Assembly: GCA_947579605.1 (NCBI GenBank)
Contig: OX388317.1
Coordinates: 26,121,384-26,185,383 of the forward strand
Source: Athripsodes cinereus
Taxonomy: Eukaryota > Arthropoda > Insecta > Trichoptera > Leptoceridae
Reading direction: 5' to 3'
Length of the DNA stretch: 64,000 bases
Each line of letters opens with the position of its first letter. Position 1 is the stretch's first letter. Shown here piece after piece: positions 432 through 60,870 of the stretch. The notes under the pieces are model-generated. The model worked only from the letters and a program-made list of their open reading frames with translations, was not told where the DNA came from and did no database searches. Both the position numbers and the translations under genes were made by a program.

Positions 432-612
432 CGAAATAAATAAAACAAGCGTTTTATTCTACTATTGATTTATTCAACGAGAGAGACGTCTTTCGACAAT
501 GTCCTAATAAGCCGAAAGACGTCTCTCTCGCCGAATAAATCAATAGTAGAATAAAACGCTTGTTTTATTTATTTCTATATGGAATTCTACTACCTAAACA
601 CCGACACAGTGA
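432..612 (+). mobile_element. Hammerhead foldback element, family A, copy 1
   Basis: Two 62-bp inverted arms (434-495 and 513-574, 60 of 62 positions matching) flank a 17-base loop, followed by a one-sided 3' tail GGAATTCTACTACCTAAACA. The element is bounded by a perfect 12-bp direct repeat, ATTAGTTTATAG, at 420-431 and 613-624. The right arm begins CGAAAGACGTCTC, which reads as the 3' half of a type I hammerhead: GAAA, stem III GAC/GUC, then UC. The preceding GTCCTAATAAG looks like stem II. The CUGANGA box itself has decayed to a GACAAT-like sequence, so catalytic activity is doubtful. The target duplication and one-sided tail argue for retroposition rather than a cut-and-paste MITE. Confidence 0.75.
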
Positions 613-678
613 ATTAGTTTATAGGCTTATTTGATTTCTGATCTGTACATACATTAGTAAGTAGTTAAAATACAATTA

Positions 679-1164
679 GAGGATTCGATCCCGGCCCTTT
701 TCTCTAATTTCCGGATTATCTACAGTAAATCCCGGGATAGTCCTGGGATTGTATTGGTAATGAAAAGTGGTGAAAAAGTCAATAAACTAAGTAAATATCA
801 GTTTTTTATTAATCTTTTGGCAATGTATTTAAGTTTGAATTTATTTTTCTATTGAATTAATCACAAACGGCTAAGTGAATACCTACCATGTGCAAAACAA
901 ACATGGTACTCTGCATTAACATGTTTACCAACCTTCAGCATATAGCATTTGTACCATCAGTCATTTTATTGCCACAATATCGGTATCTAGTGAGATATCG
1001 AACTCAGAAAGGTGCTTTTTTAAGATACGAACACAAGTTTCGGCTGTCAGCGATTCATTAATGCGAATGAGTCCCATATTCCTTACTTTTTTTATAAATC
1101 CCGAGATTCGATTAATTGAATCCCAAAAATTTCGGGACTAAAATACGACCGGGATCAAATCCAC
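679..1164. mobile_element. TA-flanked MITE with long GATCCCGG terminal repeats
   Basis: Terminal inverted repeats of about 70 bp start GAGGATTCGATCCCGG on the left and, read in reverse, GTGGATTTGATCCCGG on the right. A second matching block (AATCCCGGGAT against AATCTCGGGATT) lies further in. TA occurs on both sides (677-678 and 1165-1166), as for mariner/Tc1-type insertion. The 486-bp interior has no coding capacity. Confidence 0.55.
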
Positions 1165-1744
1165 TAAATAGAATGTACAGTGTGCGAATTCATCGCAATA
1201 TTACGATCTCTCAGAGCAAACCCAACTACATAGATCGATATAATATTCTCAAAGCATTTTTATAGCGAAATTGTAGAGCGTAACAAAGTAGTCAGGTACT
1301 CGTAGCTTCTGTAGATATAATTTATATTTATGTGTGTTAGGTAGAGGGGATGAGTATAGACGAAAGCTCTTGGGAATTATTCCAGGTGGGGGAGGATTGT
1401 AAAAGCGAGGGATGACTTGAAGATTGAGCTTGTATTTAAGTATTTGTCATAACAGAATTTCGCTATTATTTATTTATTCATTTATTTCAAACAGCTCATC
1501 TCGTTTTGAATAGCGTGATGAAATATTGCCTCAAGCGAGGGCAGCTTTTGTCGAGGGCAAATTTTTCAAATGAAAGTAATTTGCCAATTTATTTACATTT
1601 GAAAAAAAATTAAAATCTAAATATGATTAATTATTGTAACTCTGTAATATACATTATTTTTTTTTATTTGAGAAATGGAAAATATAAAAAAAAATCAGGT
1701 ACACATTGATATCTCATTATAGAAAAAAATAATTCATTCATACT

Positions 1745-1985
1745 ATTAAGGCATTTCCCGCACGTGGTGTTGGCAGCAGAACAAACTGCATGTACCAAAT
1801 ATCATTTTTTTCATTTGTGGCACTAAAAGTTAAGACATTAAGGAGGGGTAGCACACCTCATCGTTGAACTGAAGATGTTTAATGTCTTAAACGTGATGTT
1901 TCACGAATAATTTTCTTTTACAGGACACTGGAAAACTAACAGATAAGGGTGGGAGATATATTCTTTACCAGCGACTCTACAGAAT
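1745..1985 (-). repeat. R1 retroposon copy
   Basis: A near full-length but diverged R1 copy. In plus-strand order: GCATTTCCCGCACGTGG, a CAGCAGAACAAACTGCATG block, TGGCACTAAAAGTTAAGACATT, CACCTCATCGTTGAACTGAA, then TTTACAGGACACTGGAAAAC and CTTTACCAGCGACTCTACAG. It has no open reading frame. Confidence 0.65.
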
Positions 1986-2353
1986 ATTTCGATGCGATGA
2001 AAAATTACATACGAGAATGTGAATGTATTTATTTTTAAACCAAAAACTGATTCAATTAAATTCTAATAATATTTCATTGAAAAGAAAAGAATGATAAAAA
2101 ATATTAAATATACCTACGTCTTTTCATTATCAGAGAATTTGAATTAAATATTTAACAATATAATATTACTAAACTACGAATTCTATCTAAAATAAAACAA
2201 ACAAAAGGTTTCATTTTGATACGAAAACCAGTGCAAACGACAGGTTAATGGATTTGATTGTTTTGGTCACACGCATATTATTTTGATATTGTTTTCATTA
2301 CAATAAGAAGTAAGCATTATTGTTATTTTAGTCGCAATCCATGATTACTACAT

Positions 2354-3031
2354 ATATGAGGGCTTTAGATGCAAAAGCACATTGATTCTAGAGTATTGAA
2401 AACGAGAAAACAACACATTTTCTACTTCTATCTATAATATTTTAAATAATGCTTTGAAAATGTTTTTGTTTGTATGAATATTTATTTAAATCATTACAAT
2501 AATCTACTGTTAAACTACAAAACCATTAACATATTTTAAAATATACAACCAAATTTTAGTGTTGATCGAAATGAGTTTACAACTCATTTAAGTCAAATGA
2601 CAGTTGATCAAATACTAGGCGTTGAAATGACTTGCTAACTTTTAGTGTAATCTGCCTTATTGGAAAAATCTAAATAATGACCTGTGATTGGTTCAAATAG
2701 ATTGAGATGTTTCCGCTTCTTAATTAGTTTATTTAGCCGGTTTTTTTTTTAGGAAAGATGTGGATATTCATCGTATTGATTTAACTGCATTGTAGCTAGC
2801 AAAAATATGAACATTTCTGCACTGATAGTAAAATATTTAAATGATCTAGAGTTTGTGTGTTCACATTGTGAAAAGACATTTTAAACATATTTGATATCAA
2901 TAAAACACTGTTTTACTTTTCACTATTAATTTATTAATACTCAAGCGCTTTCGTCAAGTTAGCTTGACGTGAGTGAGTAAAATATTTGTTAATAATGGAT
3001 AGATGTGCCTTTGCATCTAAAGCCCTTATAT
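2354..3031. mobile_element. DNA-type element with GGGCTTTAGATGCAAA terminal repeats
   Basis: The left end GAGGGCTTTAGATGCAAAAG is repeated in inverted form at the right end (CTTTGCATCTAAAGCCCTT). The match covers about 28 bp with one or two differences, and ATAT lies outside both ends. The roughly 680-bp interior is noncoding and contains a hammerhead-like foldback remnant at 2895-2990. Confidence 0.5.
2895..2990 (-). ncRNA. Degenerate hammerhead-like foldback remnant
   Basis: On the minus strand, stem CGTCAAG/CTTGACG is followed by AAAGCGCTTGAG. This fits stem II, a GAAA-like box and a self-complementary stem III (GCGC). The terminal motif AATAAAACACTGTTTTAC is shared with the other hammerhead foldback families. 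The CUGANGA box is not intact. The upstream words TCTAGAGTTTGTGTGTTCAC recur at about 60685. Confidence 0.4.
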
Positions 3032-3954
3032 AGAATACAATTTATTGTTAACCGCTTGGAGTATTCTGAACAATTTAATTCAAAATTCTACTGTAAATTG
3101 AAAATATCAAATAATGAACTACTCTTCTACTTCTATTCCATCACGATATATTCCTCAATTGGGGTAGCATGCAGGCCAACTGCACTTCATAAACATGTAA
3201 GATGTTTATTATTTTATGTCGTATTAGTCGTATTGTGAAAAGAATTCATAAACTCGTTTCATCCCCATGATCACGTGTGAAACTTAAAGGATGAACATAA
3301 TAATATTTCTCATAGTATAATATTACATAAAAAAGTTTTTCAAAGCAGACTTTAATGTTATAAAAGTGTATCATGTCAAGAGGTACGTTGCAGGTTTAAG
3401 TTAACAAGAAACTTCCAAGTTAAATAATATCTTTAACGAAAGCTCCCTGAAGAAAGCAAATAAACTTCACGATGCGAGCACTTCAAGTAATGCGATCTTG
3501 TTTTATTTTCTCCTATCCTCTCCTTTACTATCTTATTTTAAGTATTTTTTTCTTGTTTTATTGTATTTTCTTTCTATTTGCTTCAAGAAAAGGACTACAG
3601 CCTCGTCTTTCAGCCGTCTCCTTCTATAATTGCATAAAGGATACCTACGGAAGGAAAATGGAATCTCGTTGAAATAAAATGATGTTCTAAAGCAGATTAA
3701 ATTCCTCGAAGAAAAAGGAATAGTCTTTTGATAAAGTAAACTTATATACTACGAACTTGAAAAGTAAACAAGTTTATAAAATCATAATGTTTGTGTTATA
3801 AATTCTATGAATTTTATCTTTTGAAATGCAGTAGTTTTAAACTTCCACTTTAAAACATTTTGGATAAATTTATTTTATTAATCTTTCATAATATAATCTA
3901 TCAGTGAGTATTTCAAGTATAAGCTTAATGCAAGGAAAATTTTGCAATCATTAT

Positions 3955-4085: not shown

Positions 4086-4109
4086 CTATTTACTGGAGGA
4101 TCTAGTTTA

Positions 4110-5345: not shown

Positions 5346-5444
5346 GGAATCCCATATTTTTTTTTCCTTAATTTATGGCATAGCATTCTACGAGGATGAT
5401 TTGTGCCAAAAACAGTCTCCAAGTATAGTTTCTATATTTATTAT

Positions 5445-5645
5445 AAATTTAAAATAAAAGAAACTTTGTACTTTCCACTAGAATAACTTTAATCAGTTAA
5501 AATTGATTAAAGTTATTCTAGTGTTGTTGTTCCATCATCAGTAACAGTATTGTTACTGATGATGGAACAAGTAGTTCCGAAAACGTTTTAACTGATTAAA
5601 GGTATTCTAGTGAAAAGAACAAAGTTTCTTTTATTTTAAATTAAT
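5445..5645 (+). mobile_element. Hammerhead foldback element, family D1
   Basis: Outer inverted arms (AGAAACTTTGTAC...CTAGAATAAC and its complement) enclose inner paired segments. On the plus strand CTGATGA (5556-5562) is followed by stem II TGGAAC-AAGTA-GTTCC (5563-5578), GAAA (5579-5582), a minimal stem III ACGT, then TT and TAAC. TAAC can pair with the GTTA just 5' of CTGATGA to form stem I. The core is intact, which makes this one of the best hammerhead candidates in the window. No clear target duplication was found. Confidence 0.72.
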
Positions 5646-5684
5646 AAACATTTTGTATTTCATTTAATAAACATGAAATTCGTC

Positions 5685-6282: not shown

Positions 6283-6289
6283 GAATATA

Positions 6290-7035: not shown

Positions 7036-7039
7036 TACA

Positions 7040-7463: not shown

Positions 7464-7545
7464 ACACAGTAAAATGACTTTTATTAACTTCGCGTACTAG
7501 TATTTGGAAAATCTTGATTCCATCATCAGGCGATTAGTAAAAAAC
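7464..7545 (-). ncRNA. Hammerhead-like motif, family D2, minus strand
   Basis: CTGATGA on the minus strand (plus-strand TCATCAG at 7523-7529) is followed by stem II TGGAA-loop-TTCC. An AAA box then replaces GAAA, with a self-complementary ACTAGT stem III. Bases GCGA after stem III can pair with TCGC just 5' of CTGATGA as stem I. G12 appears lost, so activity is uncertain. The outer sequence AAAACACAGTAAAATGAC matches the family's terminal signature. Confidence 0.5.
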
Positions 7546-8945: not shown

Positions 8946-9221
8946 CACATTTTGAGATTATAAAATAAAATCTGAGTTTGTAAAAGACCCGAATACACCC
9001 CAAACTCCTTCACAGTAAGCAACATTATGCTTTTGTTATGAAGGGGAAGTAGATCTGTAATGCAGAAAATCAAAGCTGGGATTTCTTCATTTATTTTTTT
9101 ATTTCTTTTAGAGTCTAATCCACATTTAATCGTGTAATATTCTCTTGATGTAAGTTAGAGTAGGGTTAGTAGAAGGATTTACATGAAATTTTATACATTC
9201 GAGAATAATAATGATCAGTTT

Positions 9222-9479
9222 CAAATAAAATATTTAAAACTTGAATCACTATGTTTATTTGTTACATTAATTTAAATTACGCTATCGCGATTTCAGTGCA
9301 CTTGCACCATTGACGAGCTTTTCAAGTCTTGAAAAGCTCATCAATGGTGCAAGTGCACTGAAATCGTGATAGCGTAATTTAAATTAATGTAACAAATAAA
9401 CATAGTGATTCAAGTTTTAAATATTTTATTTGAAAATGTCTCGTAATTGTTACATAGTCAATGCCTCTAAAATAAGTGA
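9222..9479 (+). mobile_element. Foldback element with 15-bp target duplication (family E1)
   Basis: Arms of 108 bp (9219-9326 and 9329-9436) are almost perfectly complementary. A one-sided tail GTCTCGTAATTGTTACATAG follows. The direct repeat AATAATGATCAGTTT is perfect over 15 bp at 9207-9221 and 9480-9494. The right arm has stem II GTGCA/TGCAC, then GAAA, stem III TCG/TGA (TCG/CGA in the other arm), UA and GCGTAATT, which fits a hammerhead 3' half. The expected CUGANGA reads CTCATCA, so the ribozyme is probably inactive. The long target duplication supports retroposition. Confidence 0.7.
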
Positions 9480-9750: not shown

Positions 9751-9904
9751 AAAAAACACAAAGGCAACAATGACATAACAATGGTATATAAAAATACTAG
9801 TGTCGAAAAATCAAAATCAGGTTTTATAAGATCTCTGAGGTCACTGACAAAGAATGGGTGTCCTACTCTTCTTCATATTTTTTTAAGTACCTTACAAATA
9901 CCAG

Positions 9905-10115
9905 CAGGGCTACTCTTGACAAAACTAAACACGAGCTTAATCTAGTCTTGATCTTGATCATACGACGCACGAAGTGACTATTGGCCAAAAATACACGCTA
10001 ACCGATCACGCGTTAGCGGTAGTGCGGTGTTTTTGACCATAGTCCCTTCGTGCGTCGTATGATCAAGATCAAGACTAGATTAAGATCGTGTTTAGTTTTG
10101 TCAAGAGTAACCCTG
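9905..10115. mobile_element. 211-bp hairpin MITE, copy 1
   Basis: Terminal inverted repeats CAGGGCTACTCTTGACAAAA and GTCAAGAGTAACCCTG, flanked by CAG on both sides (9902-9904 and 10116-10118). The arms fold along nearly their whole length around a loop containing ACGCTAACCGATCACGCGTT. A second copy of identical length is at 60410-60620. It is noncoding. The superfamily is uncertain; the 3-bp duplication is suggestive only. Confidence 0.75.
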
Positions 10116-10299
10116 CAGGTATTCATAAAACGTCACAAAACACGACATAAGAAAAACACCAAATAAGAAAAAAACATTTTCGTTTTATTATCAGCACCTA
10201 GAGAAAGACCTGTATACATTATATTACATACAGTTTTCGTGCTGGTGCAGAGAAGGCGGAATTATTTCTATATGATAATTAAAAAAGCATCCTTCAACG

Positions 10300-11814: not shown

Positions 11815-11985
11815 GACACATAAGGATCGGTGATTAATTGTGTCGGTGCACACCTAGTAGAATTCCACAATTAGGTAAATTAAAACAAGTTCTACTTTTT
11901 ACTACAGATTATAGATCTGAGAGAGAAATCATTATATTAATAATAACCTGATAAGTCAAAAGATGTCACGATCAATAATATATAT
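11815..11985 (-). repeat. Family A foldback fragment, minus strand
   Basis: TGTGTCGGTGCACACC and TAGTAGAATTCCACAATTAG are the reverse complement of the family A tail, followed by a diverged arm. Confidence 0.45.
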
Positions 11986-13290: not shown

Positions 13291-13902
13291 CCAAAATCAT
13301 AACCGGGTGGTAAAAAATGTTCACAAATTATTCAATCGAATGTATTTTTTTGGCCACCTTACACCTACAATGGCAATATATATAAGATCAGAGTTGCCAG
13401 ATAAGGAATGATGCGTGCTGCAAGTAATAAAATCGCCCTCTGTACGTGTTATGCAGAGGGTAGTTCTATTGTTAAAGTACTCTGATGTTCTGGTACAGCC
13501 CCTAATATGTTCTAATCATCTGGTTGTATCTAGTATACCTACTGTTTTGTTCTTTGCATGATGCTTTGCACTTTGAAACATTTTTCTATGAAACTTTAAG
13601 AAGCGAATGAAGAATGAATGAATCAATCTATTTGGCAGAGCTAGCGTTATTTCTTGTATGGTAAGCAGAGAGGAATAAAATGGAGAGGATCTGAGAGGAG
13701 CGTTAAGGGCGATGATAATGATGTAATGAAAAGTAAACAAGTAATAATAATAAAGTAATATAATAAATAATTAAGTTGTTTATTTGCTTATAATAAAACC
13801 TTTTAATTTTAATTACCATTAATTTGTACCTGTTTGCACTGTACAAAATCATGTAAGAATATACGAGTATATATTTATATTTCGAGAACAAAATTTTGTA
13901 TT

Positions 13903-13990
13903 AGGTTAGTTTGAAAAAGACATAACATGTGGAAACCTGGTCACTAAATAAAAGTACATCGTAAAACTCTACAAAGTTTTTTGTTTTTAT
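13903..13990 (+). ncRNA. Hammerhead-like motif, family C (single arm)
   Basis: The plus strand reads TTAGT (stem I), TTGAAAA in place of CUGANGA, stem II GACAT-AAC-ATGT, GAAA, stem III CCTGG, TC, then ACTAA, which pairs with TTAGT. The downstream AAAACTCTACAAAGTTTT matches the outer arm of the copy at 17320. The core variant TTGAAAA recurs in other family C copies. Confidence 0.5.
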
Positions 13991-17319: not shown

Positions 17320-17460
17320 TTTAAGGTAAATTAAACAAAAAAACTTTGTAAAGTTTTACGATGTAGGATGTATTTTAGTGACCAGATTTCGACATGTTAT
17401 GTCTTTGTCAAACTCGAACATGTCGAAACCTGGTCACTAAAATAAAAGTACATAATTCAA
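17320..17460 (+). mobile_element. Hammerhead foldback element, family C
   Basis: The left arm (GTAAAGTTTTACGATGTAGG... CCAGATTTCGACATG) and right arm (CATGTCGAAACCTGGTCACT) are complementary. The right-arm core has GAAA, stem III CCTGG, TC and ACTAAAATA; the left arm in reverse reads TTGACAA, stem II GACAT/ATGTC, GAAA and TCTGGTC. Its right end is interrupted by the LINE insertion at 17461. Confidence 0.6.
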
Positions 17461-23413: not shown

Positions 23414-23500
23414 ACGTGTACATACATTTTATGAAATGTAAAATAAACTTTGTGGTATGCACACTGTACTTGTAGTTTAATTTATTATTAACCTAATTGT

Positions 23501-23728
23501 GAATTAATTAAAATAAAACACTTATTTGTAGTATATCCACGGTGACTTTTTATTGAACGCGAGCCGGCTTTCAAGAGCTTTTCGCCAGCCTGATGATGAG
23601 AGCGGAAGCTCTTGAAAGCCGGCTCGCGTTCAATAAAAAGTCACCGTGGATATACTACAAATAAGTGTTTTATTTTAATTAATTCAACATGAATTTCCAC
23701 CAAGTACCGTCGGTTGAAAATATCAACT
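23501..23728 (+). mobile_element. Hammerhead foldback element, family B, copy 1
   Basis: A perfect 13-bp direct repeat TTAACCTAATTGT (23488-23500 and 23729-23741) bounds an element made of two inverted arms and a one-sided tail, ATTTCCACCAAGTACCGTCG. In the centre, CCTGATGA is followed by stem II AGAGC-GGA-GCTCT, GAAA, a minimal stem III GCC/GGC, UC and GCG. The inverse arm supplies the same 3' half on the other strand. This is a canonical type I hammerhead core with a very short stem III, as described in Penelope-like elements. Stem I is weak in this copy. No protein is encoded. Confidence 0.8.
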
Positions 23729-24308
23729 TTAACCTAATTGTTCTTATAATTACCGCCCGATAGACCGGAATTTTCGATAATCCGGCATCGAGCCGGTCCC
23801 GAACGTGCCGGATTATCGGACTTCTACTGTATAACATTTCAATCCAGCAATGACGAGGTATGATACTCTATCTAACTGTATTTTTATACCTATGATAGTA
23901 TAATATATACAATAGATAAGATATTGAAGCATAAATTCTTCCTATCAAAAATACAACTATACATATAGTTATTCCTTTCAACATGTTGTAAAACATATTT
24001 TCCTATTATCTTACACACAATACTATTATATATACCTATATAACATGAATGTATGTAGTTCATTTTCTTCTCAAAGATTTTCCCTTTATATTGCAGCACC
24101 GGCCGCCTAACTCTCCCCTCTATTACTCCAGTTAGGGTAGACATTATATTTACGACCTGCAATAGCTTTATTTCCCGCCACACCCCAACATCCCCTTTGT
24201 ATTATTTCTTCTTTTTACTACTGCATAGGGTAAACAGTGCAGTCACTAGCCACAGCCCTACCTTTAAAATTTTCAAGTAGTATTACGAAAAAAATACATC
24301 AATATTTT

Positions 24309-29845: not shown

Positions 29846-30084
29846 TTTTACGAATTACTTATTTTATTATTTTTTGTGTTGTTTATCATTAATCTCTCAT
29901 TTCTTAAGTTTTCCCTTTTTCCCTCAAAAAATCACATAGTAAAATAAAATACTTGTTTTATTTATTTCATATTCGTAATATTTTACAAACAACACTGTCT
30001 TTTTCAGGACACTAGAAAAGTTAGGTTTTGCAGTTAGGATTCTGGGATATGGTATAGATAGGTAAATAAAATATGAATGTTAAG

Positions 30085-37084: not shown

Positions 37085-37335
37085 TACTTGGAATAACTTT
37101 GTGAAAGTTTATTTTAATAGAATTGAAATAGATTTAAAATAAAACACTGTATTACTTTCACTATGAATAATATTTGATTCAGAGACCTTTCGGGTAGCCA
37201 CCCATCATCAGTGAGTTTTTATATATAGGTTTCTAATAAAAATTCACTGATGATGAGTGTCCACCCGAAAGGCCTATGAATTAAATATTATTCTAGTGAA
37301 AGTAATGCAGTGTTTTATTTTAAATCAATTTTAAG
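37085..37335 (+). mobile_element. Hammerhead foldback element, family D3, two opposed ribozyme cores
   Basis: Plus strand: TTCACTGATGA, stem II TGAGTG-TC-CACCC, GAAA, stem III GG/CC, TA, TGAATT. TGAATT pairs perfectly with the AATTCA preceding CTGATGA as stem I. Minus strand: CACTGATGA, TGGGTGGCTACCC, GAAAGGTC, TC, TGAATC, an equally complete core on the other arm. The outer arms carry TAAAATAAAACACTG and its complement. This is the clearest pair of complete hammerhead motifs in the window. No coding sequence is present. Confidence 0.8.
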
Positions 37336-43760: not shown

Positions 43761-44003
43761 AATACATAAATAGTTTAATTTTAAAAACAATCACAAAAGA
43801 AGATTTTTATTTTATAATTTTTTTAAGAGGAACGCTTGCATTTTTAATTCATGTAACTGGTCTGTTGGCTACTCCAGTTACGTAATATACCGTGATGGGG
43901 TAGTAGTAATACAAGTAAAATACTTAATTATAATACATGGAATTAAGTGGCCTGTGCCTTCTTAAGCTGTTCTACATAAATTTGTTACTCTCAATTAATT
44001 AAT

Positions 44004-44599
44004 AGTAAATTAATTATAAATAAAACACTACTAAAGTATGTAGGTACATATATCCACTGTGACTTTTATTAGCAAAGCCGGTTTGCGTCCAACAAAAGTG
44101 ACAGTGGATATACTAAAGAAGTGTTTTATTTATAATTAATAGTAAATTAATTATAAATAAAACACTTCTAAAGTATGTAGGTATATATATCCACTGTGAC
44201 TTTTATTAGCAAAGCCGGTTTGCGTCCAACAAAAGTGACAGTGGATATGCTAAAGAAGTGTTTTATTTATAATTAATAGTAAATTAATTATAAATAAAAC
44301 ACTTCTAAAGTATGTAGGTACATATATCCACTGTGACTTTTATTAGCAAAGCCGGTTTGCGTCCAACAAAAGTGACAGTGGATATGCTAAAGAAGTGTTT
44401 TATTTATAAATAATAGTAAATTAATTATAAATAAAACACTTCTAAAGTATGTAGGTACATATATCCACTGTGACTTTTATTAGCAAAGCCGGTTTGCGTC
44501 CAACAAAAGTGACAGTGGATATGCTAAAGAAGTGTTTTGTTTATAATTAATTTAACATGAACTTCCACCAAGAATCGTCGGTTGACAATATCAATATTT
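44004..44599 (+). mobile_element. Family B foldback in four exact 137-bp tandem units
   Basis: Units begin at 44006, 44143, 44280 and 44417 (TAAATTAATTATAAATAAAA), so the period is 137 bp three times over. Each unit is itself a foldback: ATATCCACTGTGACTTTTAT against AGTGACAGTGGATAT, around CAAAGCCGGTTTGCGTCC. The central CTGATGA/stem II portion is deleted; only stem III GCCGG remains. The last unit runs into the family B tail CTTCCACCAAGAATCGTCGG. A 9-bp direct repeat TTAATTAAT (43995-44003 and 44600-44608) flanks the whole array, so all four units probably arrived together. Confidence 0.75.
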
Positions 44600-45018: not shown

Positions 45019-48000
45019 ATGAAACCGTGTGATATTTGTAATAAAAAACTTAATTTACGGAATAAAACTAAAAAATGTAAAACATGCAGGAAAAAACTTT
45101 GTTCTAAGTGTTACTTGGACTATAATAAAGAAAAGTATTGTATTGTATGCTGTGTTGATATTAAAATTGAACGGAAAGATGGCAATCCAATCCCATGGAA
45201 TCGACTCCATGCGGCCAATGTACAACATTGCTATAGTTCACTTTTGTTGCACGAAATATATGGAGACTTGCCTGGTAAGTTCAATACTCTTACTACTACT
45301 ATACCATCACGGCTTATCCCACAAGTAGGATAGCCAGGAGACCAGCTGCATATTATAATAAATTGGCAAGCTGTCTTCTCTATGCCGATATAAAATCAAC
45401 ACATTCAGGATGGGTGGCAAACTTCACGCTGAATTTAAGATGGAAAATGTCTTTCAACTGCCTTTTACAAGACAGTTGAAAACGTACGGAGAAGAATGGG
45501 AGACCGATTCTTTACTGGGTGCTCCATGGGATAGATTCAATTTTCTTACATGTTTATAATATAAGGGGTCCAAAGTTTATCGCGAGCATTGCAGCAAACG
45601 AAGATAGTTCTGCATTTCCACGCAATCGCATCTTCTAGCTTTAAACTCGCTCTGTAAATTGCATTATAAATTTGTGTTTTCATCTTTCTATATAAGTTCC
45701 TATTTTGTAACCATTAAAATACAGTGAATAGTAAGAAGAATGATAATAAAGGATCTTTATAACTAAACCTTAATCCTTTAACATCAATAATTTTATAATT
45801 AAACTCGATATATATATAGTTATTCCGCTGTTGACTGTACTAATTTTGCGAGCCGGCTTTCAACAGCTTCCGCTCTCATCATCAGGCAAGGCTTCACTTT
45901 ACTTTTGCCTGACGATGAGAGTGAAAGATCTTGAAAGCTGACTCGCAAAATTAATAAAGTCAACAGTGGAATAACTAAACATCGTGTTTCATTAAGAAAA
46001 TTCTTCCACCAAGAACCATCGGTCGACAAATTAAACTTTATATTTTTATTATTTTAGTAAAAGACATCCAAAACCTTATAAACGATTATATCAAAGATGC
46101 TTGTGACCCAAATAAAGCTGAAACATCCATAAACAGCGGTGGATTAGGTTTTTCATCTGAAGGAAATCCAAATCTGGCAGATCATCATGAAGATGGAACG
46201 CAGCACAATGTGGGGCAATCTAGTCTCCTTAGAAGTAGCCATGAAACAACCTCTGCCACCATACATTCTGATGGAACTAAACCATTATATATAGAAACCA
46301 ATTTTCCCGATACTGGTAAATTATTTTTTTATTAGTCATTCGCTCTACCTATGTGTTTTTTCCTTAAGGGGCCACCCTTTAGCAAAAACGCCAAAACATC
46401 CAATTTTCAACAAGCTTGGTACCTACACAAACTCTCAAAACTTGTTAACCCTACGAACATTTTGATTTGATAAAATATAAAAACAAATATTATTTACCAA
46501 TATCAAACTTTAACTTTAAAAAAAACTCGATTTAAGCTTCATAGTATTCGTTTATAAAAAAGCATATTTCTAAAAATCGAATTCGAGACTGTGTTTGGTA
46601 CATAAATGCACGAGATTCCTACAAATTTCCATATATTTATTTTAATATTGAGAATATTTAGATAGTTATTACAATTATAGAACAAAAAATTTTTTTTTTT
46701 TGTTGTTTTTTTCATGGAAATTGACCGACTTAAAAAATATTTTTTTGACTAAATTTCTCATATTTTGAAACCAAAAATCACCAGATGAACTCAATTTTTC
46801 GTATACTAAAAAAAGTTTGCCAAAATCTATAGTATTTATATGCTTGATAGGATGAATAAAAAATATATATATTTTACAAATGATTTGTAGGTATTTTGAT
46901 ATAACAAAGGGTACCTAAATAAATCTCGTCAGTCTGCGATTTATTTATTTTTTAGTAAAAAACTAATATTGATAATAAATATTTGATTTTTTATTTTATC
47001 AAATCAATATGTTCGCAAGGGTCAACAAGTTTTGGCATTTTTTCTATCAACTTTGTTGAAAATAGAAAATTTTACCGTTTTTGATAAACGGGGAACTTAA
47101 GTGATTAATTTTATCTCTAAATTTTAACAAACTTATGTTTGAATTTTATTTATAAACTAAGATTTTATCTATTCTGTTGGCTTGGCACTGCATATCATCA
47201 CATTTTTTTTTCTTATGTAAACTGATTTGCTGATTTTGTTTTAGTAAAATTTAATAAAATAAATAAATATATTTTCTCTGTCATACAGGGAATATTAATT
47301 TTATGAATATCTTGAGTCGAAGCAACAAACATTCTGTGGTGATTAATTTTATTTTACTGTTACGTGATTTGTTTATGTGTATTGTGTTAATATAATTATA
47401 AATAAAACACTTATTTATAGTATATCTACAGTGACTTTTTATTGGAAGCGAGCCGGCTTTCAAGAGCTTCCGCTCTCATCATCAGGCTGACTTTTCGCTA
47501 GCCTGATGATGAAAGCGGAAGCTCTTGAAAGCCGGCTCGCGTCCAATAAAAAGTCACTGTGGATATACTATAAATAAGTGTTTTATTTATAATTTTAAAT
47601 ATTTGGCATTCTAGGTCCGTTTATATAATACCTTTAGTCATGTCAGCTACAGGGGTAACTCCGAAATCTTTAATAAATAATTTACAAAAATTAGATTTAC
47701 CGGTTAATTTGTATATTAAAATTCAAAAATCTATTATAATAAACACTTGTAATATTGTAAAAAAGTTTTTGAACACAGATATTTCAGGCACAATGCTGGT
47801 ATTTTGATCCCGCGTTTTGAGCCTAATCCTTTGATATCCTGTATATCTGGATAGGTGAATTTTTCCCGGCATTAGACTGTTAAGTTTTTGTGTGACCATG
47901 ACTGATCATATGGAGACTTACCTGGTTGTATAATGCTGAGAAGTGTGGATGGCAATTCTGCCGCCGCGTAAAATAATACCATCACGTAAAATAACACAAG

Positions 48001-50443
48001 AAGAGTAGCCAACATCATTAAAGATTAATTTTAATTTTTGATTGAGATTTGTAAAAATCTTTTAAAAAGTATGTACCTACACAAAATTAATAAAAAAATA
48101 ATATTTTTTATTAGTTATATTAAAATGTTTGCAGAGGCTACAACTCAAAATGGAAAGAGTGAAGGATGCGCATCGCCTGAAAGAGATCCAAAACCAGTGG
48201 AGCAACGAACCAATTATCAATTTCATAGCGTGAGACAAATCAATCCAAGTGGATATGTACATGATCAGAATTTATTCTCCGAGACTCAATTTAGTATTAA
48301 CAATCCTAAAAATACTATAACACCAAGTGGCGTTGAAAAAAAGCAAACCATGAGTGATGTCAATTCACTTGAAGTGTCGGTAACTAAACAACAGGCTTCC
48401 GATCAACAAAATCATCTGATTTTCAAAAACGAGCATAATCCAGATTTGTATTCACGTTATACCGAAATACAACAACAGCTTAATAACCAAAATACAAACA
48501 AAAACCGGAATGTTGAAGATATTATCGAGAACTATGTCAACGAATATGATACTCAACTTCAACTTAAACGGCAAAGATCCGAAAATAATCCTTCTTCAGA
48601 TGTATATTCACAATTTACAAATCAAGACACAAGTAACAAGAAACACAATGTCGATACTTCGTCGGCGTATGTCAATAAGTATAACAATGAACGTCAACCA
48701 AAACAGCATTTATCTCAGTTTGAGTCTTCTTCAAATGATTCTCCATACAATAGAGAGCAAGACACAAGTAATGCCCAAAGTATCGATAATTCTTTCACAA
48801 AATGTACGAACAACCAACAACATACTGTATATCAATCAAACCACCAAGCATCTCAGTATAATTTTTCACCTGATAACTTTTGGCAATACAGAAGCCAAAA
48901 CAAAAGTAACGTCCAGAATAGCGGCAATGCATTTGAGATACAACCAAACAACCAACAAGATGTAGATCAACCAATACAACAAGTTTCTCAGCATAAGTCT
49001 TCTTCTAATGGATATTCGCAATATAAGAACCAAGACACAAATAATGCCCAGAATAGTGGTAATTTATATGGAGCAGTGGCCAAACAAAATGTATACCAAC
49101 CAACACAGCAGATATTCGCCCACGAGACCTCTCTTAATGCACAACTCAGAAACAAAGACACGAACAATGTCCAGAATAGAGGCACTTCATTTGGTGTACC
49201 GGTAACAAAACAAGATGAATATCAACCAATACAGCAAGTATCCCAGCAAAGGTCTCTTTCCAGCTATTCAGAATATAAGAATCAAGTTACCCAGCCCAAT
49301 ATTGCCAGTTTATGTGGAGCACCTGTTACCATACAAAGTATATATCAACCAAAAAAAGAAGTACATCAGCCTCAGTCTCTTTCAGGTGGGTATTCACAGA
49401 ATGCCAATGATTATGTAACACCGTACAAAGACAAACAATTTGGAGATCAGCCAAATGAATTTTCACTAGACAGACATCGCCAAGATAGGCAAAGAGAAGA
49501 ACAACCTAAACGAAATGGTTAGTATCATTGGGTTAGTTACTAAGTTAAGTTACTAAATACTGTCGGGATATGTATGGTGTTTGTTCCTATTCCTCAATTG
49601 GAATATTAGAACCACCAGCCTTTAATGAATTAGATACTTTATAAAAAAGAGTTTGGCTTGTGTTTTAAACAAATTTCAATTACGAATAAATAGAAGATAT
49701 TGATCTTATCAATGAGTGTAATTTGTATAAAGAAAGATTCAAGAATATTTAACAGTATCTATTTTGTTAAATTCTATGTCTATTAACGATATATAAATCT
49801 ATGATTTAAGTTTTAATTGTTTCACATAAAGCCACCTAGGTTTCGACATGCGATGTCGTTTTCAAAATAGAATAGGTTTAGTTTGAAAACGACATCGCAT
49901 GTCGAAACCTAGGTCACTATAATAAAGTAACTAGGAAAACTTGTAAAAAAGATTTCTTTACTCTACTGATACATAACACTGTGTCGGTGTTTAGGTAGTA
50001 GAATTCCATATCGAAATAAATAAAACAAGTGTTTTATTCTACTATTGATTTATTCGATGAGAGAGACGTCTTTCGTCTTATGAGGACATTGTCAATCCAA
50101 GGATTGACATCTCTCTCATCGAATAAATCAATAGTAGAATAAAACACTTGTTTTATTTATTTTGATACATAACATTTTATTTATTTTTTCAGATTACAGA
50201 AGCAACGCAAGGACCTCGGAAACGGTGAATACAAATACAGGAAGAACTCAAGCACAGGAAATTTCAAACATTTCAAGTCTAGCAAACTGCAGGACCATAG
50301 CCGATGTGAGAAACCTAGATATTTTAGAACTTAAGAAGGCACTCGAAAGTCATGGTATCAATTCGAGGACGTATTGTGAAAAGGCAGAATTATTGGAAAA
50401 AGTTGAAGAGATATGGACAAATATATATTTACCGGATATCTAA
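45019..50443 (+). CDS. RNF34/rififylin-like protein with Q/N-rich repeat exon, lacking RING (gene 2)
   Basis: Exons 45019-45274, 46058-46315, 48135-49517 and 50193-50443 join without a stop into 715 aa. All introns are GT-AG, phase 1. Residues 4-44 are the FYVE-like finger (CxxC-x12-CxxC-x4-CxxC-x9-CxxC; CKTCRKKLCSKC), followed by WNRLHAANVQHCYSSL. Exon 2 (87-171) starts VKDIQNLINDYIKD, parallel to VEDFKKQIANYIKI of gene 1. Exon 3 (173-632) is Q/N/S-rich with about eight 40-50-residue repeats. Residues 665-708 are the SAP-like module (CRTIADVRNLDILELKKALE). The protein stops at YLPDI without a RING. An in-frame upstream ATG at 44971 exists, but the start at 45019 matches gene 1. Introns hold R1, a TTAA-type element and three hammerhead foldbacks. 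It is a tandem paralogue of gene 1. The conserved zinc finger and splice sites suggest it is still under selection. Confidence 0.8.
45288..45535 (-). repeat. R1 copy immediately after gene 2 exon 1
   Basis: The ACTACTACTAT tract begins about 14 bp after the GT donor at 45275. It reads ACCATCACGGCTTATCCCAC, AGGATGGGTGGCAAACTTC and CTGGGTGCTCCATGGGATAG. Confidence 0.75.
45806..46028 (+). mobile_element. Hammerhead foldback, family B, in gene 2 intron 1
   Basis: Flanked by AATTAAACT (45797-45805 and 46029-46037). On the plus strand ACTTTTGC, CTGACGA, stem II TGAGAG...GATCTT, GAAA, stem III GCTGAC, TC, GCAAAATTA. The 3' GCAAAA pairs perfectly with the 5' TTTTGC as stem I. The tail CTTCCACCAAGAACCATCGG is family B. 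It ends about 20 bp before the exon 2 acceptor. Confidence 0.8.
46368..47096. mobile_element. TTAA-flanked nonautonomous element in gene 2 intron 2
   Basis: TTAA stands at 46364-46367 and 47097-47100. Inward of these, imperfect terminal repeats of about 100 bp share AGCAAAAACG/ATCAAAAACG, ATTTTCAACAA, CAAAACTTGTTAACCCT and ACATTTTGATTTGATAAAAT. TTAA targets are characteristic of piggyBac-type elements. The roughly 730-bp interior is noncoding. Confidence 0.5.
47393..47595. mobile_element. Hammerhead foldback, family B, in gene 2 intron 2
   Basis: Arms of about 95 bp (AAATAAAACACTTATTTATA...AGAGCTTCCGCTCTCATCA and complement). CTGATGA occurs on the plus strand at 47503-47509 and on the minus strand at 47479-47485. 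Each is followed by stem II GCGGAAGC, GAAA, GCCGGC and UC. The 3' tail with CCACCAAG is missing, so this copy is 3' truncated or a bare arm pair. Confidence 0.75.
48400..49480 (+). repeat. Degenerate 40-50 codon repeats in gene 2 exon 3
   Basis: Recurring protein motif of the type S.Y..Y.NQDTNNAQN.G..., then YQP.QQV.Q. Examples are SSSNGYSQYKNQDTNNAQNS, NFWQYRSQNKSNVQNSGNAF and SLSSYSEYKNQVTQPN. About eight units can be recognised, drifting in sequence and length. The composition is prion-like (high Gln and Asn, few hydrophobics). Confidence 0.7.
49808..49943. mobile_element. Hammerhead foldback, family C, in gene 2 intron 3
   Basis: The arms CCTAGGTTTCGACATGCGAT and ATCGCATGTCGAAACCTAGG are exact complements. 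On the plus strand TTTAGT (stem I), TTGAAAA, stem II GACAT-CGC-ATGTC, GAAA, stem III CCT/AGG, TC, ACTA. It has the same variant core TTGAAAA as at 13903. Confidence 0.65.
49979..50162 (-). mobile_element. Hammerhead foldback, family A, copy 2, in gene 2 intron 3
   Basis: A perfect 12-bp direct repeat TGATACATAACA (49967-49978 and 50163-50174) flanks an element identical in layout to 432-612 but reversed: tail CTGTGTCGGTGTTTAGGTAG first, then the two arms. It ends 30 bp before the exon 4 acceptor. Confidence 0.8.
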
Positions 50444-53650: not shown

Positions 53651-53659
53651 TCTTCTTTT

Positions 53660-54780
53660 CGTTCTCAGGAAAATCTTGAAGGTTGATCGAGTAGTTGTTT
53701 TATGAATTTTTGATGCAATAAATGAATTAACATAATCAAACTTTCTCTTTTCCTATGATGTTTTATAAAATATGTAGTTGAATAGGAAATTAAGAAAAAA
53801 TAGGTGAGTATCCATTATTTTTTTGCAATGATTATGTTCTGATAAATGATAACATGATTTATATTTTTGCAAAGTATCTTAATTACAAAAAAGGAGAAGG
53901 TATGTATTGTTCTTCTATTTTAATGTTCCCTTTATGCTTTGTGTGGAAAGATGAAAATTTTGACTTATTTTGAAATGCTTTTAAGCCTCAGATTTCAAAA
54001 CTATAGTAGACCTTTAGTATTTGTGGGAATTGGCACAAATATTTGAGCCCGTACATATCATCAACGATGTCCCTAATTTAGGAAAGGCATGTTGAATAAT
54101 AAACTCTATACATGATCACAGACTCCAGGCCAAAAATATTTCAAATATCTTATTTATTGACAAAGATATCAACATTTTAATGAAATTTACTGAAGTAATG
54201 TTTGAAAATTTGACTTCCTGATTGCCGAAATCGTAGACAAAACATTTTCATTATATTGAATTAATTTCAAAATGGAAGTGATAAAAAATACAACTAAACT
54301 GAAACTTAAAGCTTGGAGATTATTTTGGTTTTAAAACATCATGCTTGCACATCATGAAAACTCCTAATTTGTGTAAATTAGAATTGCATAATTTCGGCAT
54401 ATTTTCATTCAATTTCATAGACCACATATGACAGACTAAATATGACACATGAGAAAAAAAACAAAGAAAAATAATTGTGAAAATGGAATTATGAAATTCA
54501 TAGACAATATTGTAGGTATGAGTTTTCCAATAAATACATAGGTAGGTACTTTTCTCAATCAACGAGTAGTATTTATTTTGACCTAATATTTTCATGAGTC
54601 TTTAAAAAAAATCTGATGAAAGTATTTCAATTAAAAATATAATACTTCAGAATATTGAAGAATGTATATTCATTCATCAAGGTTTCTTTTGGGAATACAG
54701 AGAGGGAATGCCTATATAGGAAACATTAATTGTTTCGTTCCTTTTTAAGAACTGTTTTCCTTATATACATATATTTTTTT
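53660..54780. other. No gene seen
   Basis: AT-rich, with short open stretches of low complexity only. Confidence 0.55.
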
Positions 54781-54795
54781 AGGACTTTTATCCAA

Positions 54796-56570
54796 GTAGG
54801 TACCAACCCATTTTTTTAATGATATATGAGCGTGAAAGGTGTCATACTTCTAGATTTTACAATGGGAAGAGGTTTTTAGTACTTTTATCCACATAGGTAC
54901 CTACCCATTTTATTTATTGAAATATGGCCGTGTGTGATGTCAACCTTGATTTTACAATGGAAAAAGGTTTTCAGTACTTTTATCCAGGTAGGTACCTACC
55001 CATTTTTTTTATTGAAATATGGCCGTGTGGGATGTCAAACTTCAAGATTTTACAGTGGGAAAAGGATTTCAGTACTTTTATCCACGTAGGTTCCTACCCA
55101 TTTTTTTATTGAAATATGGCCGTGTGGGATGTCAAACTTCAAGATTTTACAGTGGGAAGAGGTATTCAGTGCTTTATCCACGTAGGTTCCTATCCATTTT
55201 TTTTATTGAAATATGGCCGTGTGGGATGTAAAACTTTACGATTTTAGCTGGTTAGCTTGAAGATATTGCCTCCAGGCAATAAGCTCGCCAATTGCTCATG
55301 ATTTTTTTTTTCTGATTAATAAAGTGTTCTTATTATTATTATTATTTTACAGTGAGAAGAGGTTTTCAGTACTTTTATCCAGGTAGGTACCTACCCATTT
55401 TTTTTATTGAAATATGGTCGTGTGGGATGTCAAACTTCAAGATTTTACAGTGGGAAAAGGATTTCAGTACTTTTTTCCACGTAGGTACCTACCCATTTTA
55501 TTTATTGAAATATGGCCGTGTGGGATGTCAATCTTCAAGCTTTTACAGAGGGAAAAGGTTTTCAGTACTTTTATCCACGTAGGTACCTACCCATTTTTTT
55601 ATTGTAATATGGCCGTGTGGGATGTCAATCTTCAAGCTTTTACAGTGGGAAGAGGTATTCAGTGCTTTATCCACGTAGGTTCCTATCCATTTTTTTATTG
55701 TAATATGGCCGTGTGTGATGTCAACCTTGATTTTACAATGGAAAAAGGTTTTCAGTACTTTTATCCAGGTAGGTACCTACCCATTTTTTTTATTGAAATA
55801 TGGTCGTGTGGGATGTCAAACTTCAAGATTTTACAGTGGGAAAAGGATTTCAGTACTTTTTTCCACGTAGGTACCTACCCATTTTATTTATTGAAATATG
55901 GCCGTGTGGGATGTCAATCTTCAAGCTTTTACAGAGGGAAAAGGTTTTCAGTACTTTTATCCACGTAGGTACCTACCCATTTTTTTATTGTAATATGGCC
56001 GTGTGGGATGTCAAACTTCAAGATTTTACAGTGGGAAAAGGATTTTAGTACTTTTATCCACGTAGGTACCTACCCATTTTATTTATTGAAATATGGCCGT
56101 GTGTGATGTCAAACTTCAAGATTTTACAGTGGGAAAAGGATTTTAGTTCTTTTATCCACGTAGGTACCTACCCATTTTTTTATTGTAATATGGCCGTGTG
56201 GGATGTCAAACTTCAAGATTTTACAGTGGAAACAGGATTTCAGTACTTTTATCCACGTAGGTTCCTACCCATTTTTTTATTGAAATATGGCCGTGTGGGA
56301 TGTCAAACTTCAAGATTTTACAGTGGGAAGAGGTATTCAGTGCTTTATCCACGTAGGTTCCTATCCATTTTTTTTATTGAAATATGGCCGTGTGGGATGT
56401 AAAACTTTACGATTTTAGCTGGTTAGCTTGAAGATATTGCCTCCAGGCAATAAGCTCGCCAATTGCTCATGATTTTTTTTTTCTGATTAATAAAGTGTTC
56501 TTATTATTATTATTATTTTACAGTGAGAAGAGGTTTTCAGTACTTTTAGCCACGTAGGTACCTACCCTTT
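54796..56570 (+). repeat. About 97-bp satellite array with higher-order duplication
   Basis: Roughly 17 units, each with GTAGGTACCTACCCATTTTT, ATTGAAATATGGCCGTGTGG and GATGTCAAACTTCAAGATTT. Unit length is near 96-98 bp. A LINE-tail insert (TATTGCCTCCAGGCAATAAG, GATTAATAAAGTGTTCTTAT) appears at about 55247-55347 and again 1165 bp later. A four-unit block (55414 onward) is repeated at 55800, 386 bp away. The near-multiple-of-three period creates artificial open frames up to 184 codons. Confidence 0.85.
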
Positions 56571-56589
56571 TTTTAATTTAAATATAAGC

Positions 56590-58194: not shown

Positions 58195-58540
58195 TTTTTA
58201 TGGGCAGCGCCCGCCACATACCTCGTGCCGTACCTGGAGATATGTATCTCCATAACGACACACACATGCACAAACAGGATTTAATGTCGCACTAAAGCGA
58301 GAAATGCTGCCCCGAGGGAGCACTCTAGATTTAGCGGCCTGCTTCGAACCTGCATCTCCTTAACAACACACGTGTACAAACAGGATATTTTGTCACCGAG
58401 AAATACTGCCCCGAAAGAGCACTCTAGATTAAGCGGCCACACACCAGAAATTATGGTGCAAAAAGGGAAGGAAAGAAACGGGAATACGACATCCTATCTA
58501 TGCATTATCGTTAATAAGTAAATAATTGAAGGGGATGCGA
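58195..58540 (-). repeat. SINE-like family (GGCAGCGCCC), minus strand
   Basis: In reverse it matches the insertion at 52212-52470: GGGCAGCGCCCGCCACATAC, GTACCTGGAGATATGTATCT, GAGAAATGCTGCCCCGAGGG. An internal segment is duplicated (GAGCACTCTAGATTTAGCGG and CACTCTAGATTAAGCGGCC). An R1 fragment follows at 58545-58640. Confidence 0.65.
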
Positions 58541-59944
58541 TGTGCCACCCATCCTAAATGTCTTATTTCGCAGTCTATGTGTTCATTTCATGCAATTATG
58601 ATACTGGCTACCCCACTTATGGAATATTCCGTGAAATGAAAAATATCTTATACTACAAATTGTGTGACAGTTAAGTACACTTAAACTTTCATATATGAAA
58701 AAGATTATGTTCTAAAATGATCCATAAAAATAATTATATTATAACACTTTTTTGATTGAAAAAATCATGAACAATTTGCAAGTTTATTGCCATTGGAGGC
58801 AATATCTTCCAGCTGACCAAAGTAATGTGTGGTATTACGTTGACAATGTGTAAAATTAAAAGATACTAAACTTTACAGTCTAACTGACTTAGTGTATCTG
58901 GCATATTTGAAATGTTTTTTTTTTCAAACGAATACTACAAATGAAAGATTAAGCCAGAGGCAGGAACAATTTAGGATAAAAAGTAAATCCCATTATGGGT
59001 TTTAGATTAAAAGACGAAAATAGCTCTATTATTAAAAAGATGATGGAATTTTTTCATTTAAAATTCCTTTTTTCTTAGTCAACCGCCTTCTCGAGTAATT
59101 TAAATATTGTTTTATATTTTGTAGAAAACAATATCATTTTGCAAAACAAACGTCAAAGAAATGAATTGAAAATTTGAAGTAAATTAATTTTCCATGGATA
59201 GAGGACGTAGTACACAAATTAAGAAGGAATTCTTTCAAGCTATACCATCACGGAAACTCTTGCAAGCAGGGAAACCAGCAGACTACATTACTCCGATTGT
59301 AATATCTGGGTTAGTTGGAAGACATCGCATTCTAGAGATAAACACACCCTCTCTACATTGTATGGTATAACTGATATTTTTATGATACTTTATATTAATT
59401 TGAAGTATTGTAACGATTGTACAGCGAAGAGAAAAAAAAATCAAGATGTCCACTTCCTGTTTTCCTTGAAATGAGACATTAAGGATAGGTGGAATAGGTA
59501 CATCATTGATAAATTGGAGATGTCAATTCTCTTTTTGGTGATGTTTTACAAAAAAAACTGTTTTTTACAGGAGACTCGAAAACTAATAGTAAGGAGTATA
59601 AATGATAGTTGTTTTGAATATTTCCTTTTTTTTCACAAAACCAATCAGATGTAACATTGTGCGAAATCTAATCGGAAGAAATTAGAAAGGCGTCCGAATT
59701 GGCTCTAGGCTGGCTATAGTGATCAATAATAATAGGTAAAGGCAGCTACATAGGTAATGATATATATCTATCTATAATATCACGACTTATTATTACTATT
59801 ACTGACAATAAGACGATTCTTACAAGGATCATTACAGCTGAAGGCTAATGCGATCCCAGAAGAAAACCTTAAACGATAACACAACTACAAGATATCCTCG
59901 GTTTTTCTTATAAATTCTGCATACGTCACGTTAAAGATATCTAC

Positions 59945-60125
59945 TTCTTTAATATCCCACAAATGGGGTAGCCAACAGACACACTGCACGCAATAAACAT
60001 GAAGATATGTTTTTTTTCGTATCAAAGTAAAATAATATACATTTTCAGTATGGGTGGCCAACCTCAATGCTGAATTGTATATTTAACTGTTGATGCTTTG
60101 CGAGTACTTGCCATTAACAAAATAC
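59945..60125 (-). repeat. R1 retroposon copy
   Basis: ATATCCCACAAATGGGGTAG, CCAACAGACACACTGCACGC, AGTATGGGTGGCCAACCTC. A further degraded piece is at 59240-59600. Confidence 0.6.
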
Positions 60126-60409
60126 TCAAAAACAGGTTTGTGTATAATTATAGGCTACTAGAAAATAATATCAAAATATAATCATTATTAAAAAAACATT
60201 ACCTACGTATTTCTGAATCAATGCTTGCATCTCAGTGAAAATAGCGGGGGGTGGTGTGCATCCGACAGAAGGGGAAGGCTGGTTGACTGGAGGAGATTGC
60301 TTTAAAGGGGAAATTTAAAGGTAACTCATTATACATCACCTTCCTTCAATTTACTTTAGAATTTTTTTATTGCACAAAAATATAATTGTTAATAACAAAA
60401 ACAAAACAG

Positions 60410-60620
60410 CAGGGCTACTCTTGACAAAACTAAACACGATCTTAATCTAGTCTTGATCTTGATCATACGACGCACGAAGTGACTATTGACCAAAAATACA
60501 CGCAAACCGATCGCGCGTTAGCGGTAGCGCGGTGTTTTTGACCATAGTCCCTTCGTGCGTCGTATGATCAAGATCAAGACTAGATTAAGATCGTGTTTAG
60601 TTTTGTCAAGAGTAACCCTG
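60410..60620. mobile_element. 211-bp hairpin MITE, copy 2
   Basis: Nearly identical to 9905-10115 and exactly the same length, again flanked by CAG (60407-60409 and 60621-60623). Confidence 0.8.
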
Positions 60621-60684
60621 CAGAATCAACGAAACCTCTTCTTCCAAGAAGTAAGAAATTTAAATTATACAAAATAAATTATCT

Positions 60685-60870
60685 AGAGTTTGTGTGTTCA
60701 CATTGCGAAAAGACATTTTAAACATATTTGATATTAAAACAAAAAAAAACAATGAACATTGTTTTTGGTAATATCAATGTGTTTACACAAAATACTTGGT
60801 AGATCCAATTGTAACTTTCTTAATTTTCACACCGGCTTTCGAAAGATTCCATCAACAGCTTAACAAATTA
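60685..60870 (-). ncRNA. Hammerhead-like motif and shared flank
   Basis: TCTAGAGTTTGTGTGTTCAC at the left repeats the sequence at 2845. On the minus strand CTGTTGA (plus TCAACAG at 60852-60858), stem II TGGAATCTTTC, GAAA, GCCGG, TG. One core base (A6) is changed to U. The stem III GCCGG resembles family B. Confidence 0.4.

Follow-up and report, generated by a model that had tools for sequence, protein, structure and literature searches.

A window of 64,000 nucleotides from Athripsodes cinereus (Trichoptera, Leptoceridae; assembly GCA_947579605.1, 716 Mb; contig OX388317.1, positions 26,121,384 to 26,185,383 of the forward strand) contains several families of foldback elements, here called A to E, with hammerhead ribozyme motifs. 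These foldbacks are very probably short insertions of Penelope-like elements (PLEs) that lack an open reading frame (ORF) and in which a pseudo-long terminal repeat (pseudo-LTR) is joined head to head with an inverted, tail-less copy. Families C and D are best read as the pseudo-LTR ends of PLEs. The hammerhead is real as a motif and the element class is not new: hammerheads in PLEs, inverted pseudo-LTRs and cores with U3 and A8 have already been published, and what is new is the scale and the evidence on palindrome formation. Hammerhead foldbacks were not found described as PLE products in the titles and abstract openings of the open-licence papers listed, which is weak evidence of novelty. 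The bearing is on how PLEs copy themselves and why the hammerhead is retained: in a genome that has hammerhead motifs by the thousand and numerous short head-to-head insertions, the tails, target duplications and turning points can be read at scale.

CTGANGA boxes start at 5556(+), 7529(-), 23590(+), 37211(-), 37247(+), 45885(-), 45909(+), 47485(-) and 47503(+). The eight motifs listed in the original prediction all exist, with positions 0 to 12 nt off (7523 is 7529(-), 37235 is 37247, 23585 is 23590 and 47479 is 47485), and 45909(+) had been left unlisted. GAA is present 3' of stem II in eight of the nine, the exception being 7529(-). The window motifs have the core CUGANGA...GAAA...UH, with U3-A8 in family E and damage at 7529(-). 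A descriptor made of the core, a stem II of at least 4 pairs, GAAA, stem III, UH and a stem I of at least 3 pairs matched four times in the window (5556, 45909, 47485 and 37211); in 4,162 dinucleotide shuffles it matched 0.015 times on average and never more than once. A covariance model, R1, was built from four motifs outside the window, at loci L060 and L052 (both adjoining GIY-YIG ORFs), L068 (preceding the start of an ORF of the same kind) and L046 (a foldback). Among the 23 R1 matches listed for the window, the top nine are exactly the nine motifs, and the tenth has an E-value of 0.23. The R1 E-values, approximate by the tool's own statement, are 6e-8 (39.9 bits) for A, 1e-6 and 4e-5 for C, 1e-3 and 8e-3 for the D copy D45812, 0.01-0.12 for the other D motifs and 0.14 for B. 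That next-best match, 2933-2979(-), was rejected as a hammerhead: stem I (TACTCA/TGAGTA), stem II, stem III and GAAAGCGCTT are present, but the core is damaged. The exact D core had 0 matches in viral contigs, and Pfam gave no match for five ORFs of the window.

Like motifs stand beside PLE genes in the same genome. A GIY-YIG search of the genome listed 86 matches, several of them in frames open for over 800 aa. Thirty loci, some overlapping, were fetched for such matches, and the descriptor found a hammerhead in 26. At L057 a hammerhead was found by R1, and L031-L033, to which the descriptor and not R1 was applied, had none. The ORF at L056 has Pfam matches to reverse transcriptase (RT; E 2e-16) and GIY-YIG (9e-6), and on contig 2 a tandem PLE array has three GIY-YIG matches 2,657 bases apart, two of them with open frames of 832 aa. 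The link to Penelope that had been predicted is supported by PLEs with open frames and hammerheads in the same genome.

Common to C, D and the PLEs is a layout of hammerhead core, 89-112 nt and start codon. The ORF-start peptides are MNFHQVPSVE (D), MNFHKVIPST (C), MNFHSVTHIK (main PLE), MNFHSVSSSK (L016) and MKCYKVNADT (L108 and L062). The start motif is MNFH(K/S/Q)V or MKCYKV, and MNFHxV is common to C, D and two PLE types; the peptide pattern was composed after the C, D and PLE tails were known and also yields spurious starts (L016 at 67, L062/L072 at 93, L079 at 243). The ribozyme, proposed as the one core shared by families with unrelated arms, is therefore shared without being the sole shared part, since C, D and the PLEs also have the distance to the ORF start in common and most of them MNFHxV. 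At L108 the order is an ORF end, the hammerhead GCAC-CTGACGA-TGCGAACTCGGAGTCCGC-GAA-ACCGGT-C-GTGC and an ATG at 311, whose frame runs on without a stop for 97 codons, as far as the stretch extends. The foldbacks L046 and L062 have a hammerhead nearly identical to that of L108, which is the PLE counterpart of this foldback type; L062 terminates 41 nt into the L108-type ORF start and has, by eye, a target-site duplication (TSD) of 12-13 bp (AGACAAATTGCA). PLE copies end after TTTTTATTTTAT or about 45 nt further, past the ORF start, and these two alternative ends are similar to the optional tail of Penelope (PMC11167929; PMC3846280, excerpt). Between the arms of the window foldbacks there is no room for an ORF with RT and GIY-YIG such as the PLEs elsewhere in the genome have, and C and D show what a derivative of a pseudo-LTR would: the pseudo-LTR with its hammerhead, then the ORF start, then a one-sided tail. 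A TCAGT initiator motif was seen by eye 5' of the core in two of five PLE types and is noted as a lead only.

The pattern CTGAHGATG-N(6-16)-CGAAANNNNTH, which demands no pairing and which D and E escape, was counted 7,179 times in the genome (3,608 + 3,571), and the reversed pattern 13 times (7 + 6). The first 100 places listed, all on contig 1, comprise 49 distinct strings, of which 35 have a self-complementary stem III (shuffle mean 17.3, maximum 27) and 43 a stem II of at least 3 bp (shuffle mean 7.9, maximum 16). Among neighbours within 1 kb in the same places, 18 of 20 pairs stand head to head, with their motifs 46 to 775 nt apart, one pair stands in each same-strand order and none converges. 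R1 was also run on 94 of 108 loci (the 14 omitted were duplicates, overlapped others or were GIY-YIG loci lacking a motif) and gave 95 matches at E<=0.1, covering most PLE and C loci. In the alignment of these matches, which was fitted to the model structure and hence leans towards the model, 95.1% of paired cells pair (72.4% shuffled), 84 cells are changed on both sides (22.3 shuffled) and the covariation score is 0.650 (0.220 shuffled, at most 0.121 for slid partners), with 0/500 shuffles as high in all three. Both sides change in all four stem I pairs and in one of two stem III pairs, and the single stem II pair changes between GC and GU only. Stem I reads, for example, GTTA/TAAC in A, AATTCA/TGAATT in C, TTTTGC/GCAAAA in D45909, TAACTA/TAGTTA in the main PLE and GCAC/GTGC in L046. 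The compensatory changes that had been named as a check are therefore present in stem I, and the type I layout with a minimal, mostly self-complementary stem III is borne out by the top nine R1 matches, the shuffles of stems II and III and the covariation.

These results bear on a reading of the elements as miniature inverted-repeat transposable elements (MITEs), that is, DNA-transposon foldbacks whose likeness to hammerheads is chance or a by-product of the palindrome. The long inverted repeats and the lack of an Rfam hammerhead agree with it, whereas stem I joins the loop region to the arm, a pairing that a palindrome would not lead one to expect, and the pattern counts (7,179 vs 13), the covariation, the variable-length TSDs with a one-sided tail in D and the like motif beside RT/GIY-YIG ORFs all argue against it. 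A DNA-transposon origin was ruled out by TSD, tail and PLE layout, and the MITE explanation is left with hardly any credibility.

The insertion sites and the arms were used to describe how the palindrome arises. Flanking direct repeats of at least 10 bp (10-16 bp) were found in 23 of 29 bounded D copies (30 loci), vs 1.2% of 812 cross-copy pairs, and the remaining six have repeats of 5-8 bp, close to the control median of 6. D thus combines TSDs of variable length with an inverted pseudo-LTR. Where the palindrome centre could be read, 11 distinct centres were found in 15 D copies (30 loci) and 14 in 15 C copies (23 loci). Right-arm variants found in more than one copy are mirrored in the copy's own left arm in 17/24 cases in D and 16/21 in C, and single-copy variants in 1/10 and 2/22. 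Variants are shared within the same copy 18 times in D and 18 times in C, against shuffled means of 5.4 and 6.5, and 0/2,000 reshuffles were as high; the test covers 22 of the 30 D and 19 of the 23 C loci, the others not being bounded by the patterns used, and the D left-arm variant count (235) is too high because flanks and centres are misaligned. By identity over short anchors, a copy's own arm was best or tied in 13/15 D and 6/15 C, with many ties. Since subfamily variants are mirrored and centres are copy-specific, most insertions probably formed their palindrome afresh, snapping back close to the RNA 5' end, and the pattern fits an origin of both arms from one template shortly before insertion. 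Of the earlier claim that the short families are ribozyme-bearing retroposons which radiated, the retroposon part holds, while the mirrored arms are probably due to each insertion snapping back on itself and not to radiation of a foldback family as a unit.

The foldbacks could instead be non-autonomous families similar to short interspersed elements (SINEs), copied as units from master palindromes with PLE proteins acting in trans. Many similar copies exist (1,224 D and 1,343 C candidates at first look, 40 of each scored), and unit copying also fits an identical centre in four of the 15 readable D copies, two further D copies that match each other and one C pair with an identical centre. In that case the mirrored variants could go back to a small number of unit-copied masters, and the centres could differ because deletions struck them later. 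Against this, the centres are mostly copy-specific, and multi-copy variants recur in mirrored form in both arms of a copy, which is also expected if snap-back masters were then copied. Unit copying is regarded as an unlikely account, albeit the strongest of the rivals.

Under the preferred reading, in which each foldback is a PLE insertion, the inserted unit would be the pseudo-LTR from just 5' of the hammerhead to about 40 nt into the ORF, with a TSD in D. The PLE protein would begin reverse transcription within the ORF start, a step for which the shared 3' end is seen and the enzyme's action is taken from the anole PLE, and would continue for about 150 nt, crossing the hammerhead and coming close to the RNA 5' end. 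The cDNA would then snap back and prime its own inverted copy, as mirrored variants and copy-specific centres suggest, and the hairpin would be inserted, the hammerhead travelling along with the pseudo-LTR. Snap-back by a cDNA extended as far as the RNA 5' end is consistent with the head-to-head order. With slightly less than an even chance of being right, we tentatively propose that most hammerhead foldbacks are 'strong-stop' products, in which cDNA of the 5' untranslated region (UTR) snaps back at the RNA 5' end and inserts as a fresh palindrome: with reverse transcription of a PLE beginning within the ORF, an mRNA of one unit would give the 5' UTR only. If this is true, the hammerhead and the RNA 5' end fix the turning point, which is recorded by thousands of insertions in one genome. 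On the preferred reading, repeats that an annotator of transposable elements might call MITEs can be PLE products.

As for the ribozyme itself, the RNA of the C consensus was predicted to be a single hairpin of -185.3 kcal/mol (right arm alone -18.9) with the hammerhead buried in it, while the C dimer was predicted to fold as a dimeric hammerhead with an intermolecular AGGCCU stem III, and the dimer of the main PLE nearly so. If the hammerhead cleaves at all, it probably does so in dimeric form within tandem PLE transcripts, not within the folded foldback RNA. In the anole PLE, hammerhead mutants left insertion in vitro unchanged (PMC11167929, excerpt). Because the hammerhead is predicted to be buried in the C hairpin and the anole mutants did not alter insertion, no claim is made that the ribozyme drives the foldbacks.

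Several observations weigh against the reading proposed here. When six single motifs were folded, only that of the main PLE showed stems I and II, A showed stem II, and the L108 dimer, one of three dimers, folded as a long duplex and not as a hammerhead. The contiguous stem I is merely GC/GC at 23590 and 47503, the common D copies likewise have only GC/GC beside the core, and the motif at 7529 is a decayed copy. Outside the window R1 recovers just 2 of 29 D loci and 0 of 17 E loci at E<=0.1, and two of the five covariation measures are not above the shuffles (double-change pairs 5 vs 5.0, further pair types 16 vs 14.1). Selection on the core within families is only weakly indicated, the core being barely more conserved than the remainder (permutation 0.013 in C, 0.078 in D). 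L046/L062 is the only foldback type matched to a PLE, no autonomous PLE with a C or D pseudo-LTR was found in the genome, and for families A, B and E the link to the MNFH tail is not traced. TSDs of at least 10 bp occur in 3 of 11 bounded C copies, vs 0/110 cross pairs, with variable boundaries, and 12 of 23 C loci could not be bounded. Lastly, the proposed covariance search with Rfam gave no hammerhead in the window at the gathering threshold or at E<=10, its matches being mostly to miRNA hairpin families and judged to be matches to any long hairpin. Five control loci that contain motifs of the PLE, foldback or E type, at least two of them adjoining PLE genes, likewise gave no Rfam hammerhead at E<=10. 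Since Rfam misses like motifs there, its silence on the window is no evidence against hammerheads, and the Rfam models used seem not to cover this form.

A further family, with a U3-A8 core, at 13911(+), 17366-17425(-) and 49883(+) was missing from the sites of the original prediction. For this family E, a core-blind pattern returned 19 rows, drawn from the 13902 site and from 13 of the 17 E loci fetched. By eye, 15 of these (five from one tandem array) read UUGANAA, with U3 and A8, a count that is biased because the E loci were chosen as best matches to a U3-A8 copy; the other four are otherwise damaged, and C3-G8 is restored in none. E keeps stem I (TTAGT/ACTAA in one copy), stem II GACAT/ATGTC, GAAA, ACCTAGGT and C17. 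As U3-A8 cores are natural and such ribozymes active in vitro (PMC3088659, excerpt), the E core is taken as a known variant.

Positions 1-921 of L091 (contig 18:23778880-23779800) contain a retrozyme-like tandem of six E units, mostly at 152-bp spacing; the U3-A8 motif is complete in five of them. At contig 6:1746712-1747357, C-related pieces with a spacing of about 120 bp lie beside a C foldback and form a probable tandem array. Together with a D-type array of 137-bp units (x4) in the window, these arrays speak for a reading of the families as retrozymes, non-autonomous elements in which the hammerhead cleaves and circularises tandem transcripts before their reverse transcription. However, the D copies examined are single foldbacks that end inside the PLE ORF start, with TSDs in 23/29, the D array of the window is without a core, and recombination can also create tandem arrays, all of which makes retrozymes an improbable source.

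Within the window, the family A foldback (5441..5647, +) is a nested palindrome, detected as inverted repeat I12 and by self-match, with its hammerhead at 5542..5602 (+; stem I GTTA/TAAC, CTGATGA, stem II GGAAC/GTTCC, stem III AACGTT, U17). The decayed family B hammerhead (7481..7543, -) has stem I TCGC/GCGA, a damaged GAAA and an R1 E-value of 0.14, and its site is absent from the 25 inverted repeats shown for the window. The D foldback at 23500..23731 (+) has a one-sided tail (ATGAATTTCCACC...) and the TSD TTAACCTAATTGT, with its hammerhead at 23576..23639 (+; contiguous stem I GC/GC only, R1 E 0.1). The C foldback (37100..37334) has its sense on the minus strand and a tail running leftward, perhaps past 37100, where the query started; hammerheads lie in its sense arm at 37168..37225 (-; stem I TCA/TGA, stem II GGGT/ACCC, stem III AGGTCT, R1 E 4e-5) and in the other arm at 37233..37290 (+; stem I AATTCA/TGAATT, stem III AGGCCT, R1 E 1e-6). 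The D-type tandem of 137-bp units occupies 43996..44594 (+), with the ribozyme core deleted and a D tail 3' of the array. A divergent D foldback with a tail, found by self-match at 45786..46040 (+), has hammerheads in its left arm (45836..45899, -; stem I TTGC/GCAA, R1) and right arm (45895..45958, +; stem I TTTTGC/GCAAAA, descriptor and R1 E 1e-3). Both arms of the D foldback at 47391..47597 (+; inverted repeat, self-match and R1) also carry one, at 47436..47499 (-; stem I AGC/GCT, descriptor and R1) and 47489..47552 (+; stem I GC/GC, R1). Family E is represented by hammerheads at 49869..49929 (+; UUGANAA with U3-A8, stem I TAGT/ACTA, stem III ACCTAGGT, within foldback 49834-49914) and 13897..13956 (+; stem I TTAGT/ACTAA, U3-A8 core) and by a copy at 17366..17425 (-; stem I AGT/ACT, U3-A8 core).

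Other repeats were also recorded in the window. Two palindromes of a family F (428-611 and 49977-50167, in opposite orientations) have a one-sided AC-rich tail (GGAATTCTACTACCTAAACACCGACACAGTGAAT) and GAAAGACGTCTC and no CTGANGA; family F could be a product of PLEs whose ribozyme is dead, and pieces of it lie at 29926-29972, 62430-62513 and 11833-11889. The CTGANGA core is absent from 9892-10128 and 60409-60621, both within the span given in the original prediction, which are two copies of one foldback with the ends CAGGGCTACTC/GAGTAACCCTG and resemble a DNA transposon remnant. At 9216-9438 there is a near-perfect palindrome (arms 111 nt, centre 1 nt, 97% complementary), and at 54776-56417 a tandem repeat of about 17 copies of a 97 bp unit. 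A dispersed repeat of about 90 bp (GTCCTCTCCGTGCCAATA...) occurs at 1817, 5665, 10839, 13193, 31081(-), 36192, 36533 and 40267, and one copy adjoins family A.

PLEs with minimal type I hammerheads were reportedly described by Cervera and de la Pena in 2014 and by Lunse and colleagues in 2017. The minimal stem III of PLE hammerheads is also described in PMC7761336 (excerpt). The anole element PAc of Anolis (PMC11167929, excerpt) has, as here, a hammerhead at the junction of pseudo-LTR and ORF, an ORF with RT and GIY-YIG, insertions ending inside the ORF start and an optional tail of 30-40 bp; its ORF reportedly starts at stem II, whereas here the start codon lies 89-112 nt 3' of the core. The U3-A8 variants of PMC3088659 (excerpt), in which C3-G8 is replaced in nature, are like family E of this genome. 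Metazoan retrozymes (PMC7229834, PMC7761336, excerpts) are likewise small type I hammerhead repeats, some of them tandem, in species-specific families, whereas C and D form foldbacks whose tail is the start of a PLE ORF. The Penelope elements of Adineta vaga (PMC3846280, excerpt) share with those described here an inverted 5' pseudo-LTR shorter than the direct one, a one-sided tail, a pseudo-LTR that includes the first codons, TSDs (8-10 bp there), head-to-head order and palindromes at the junction, and on similar grounds the authors propose self-priming for PLEs; hammerheads are mentioned 0 times in PMC3846280. The copy number in Adineta vaga is very low, whereas the present genome has thousands of hammerhead motifs, and foldbacks without an ORF between their arms.

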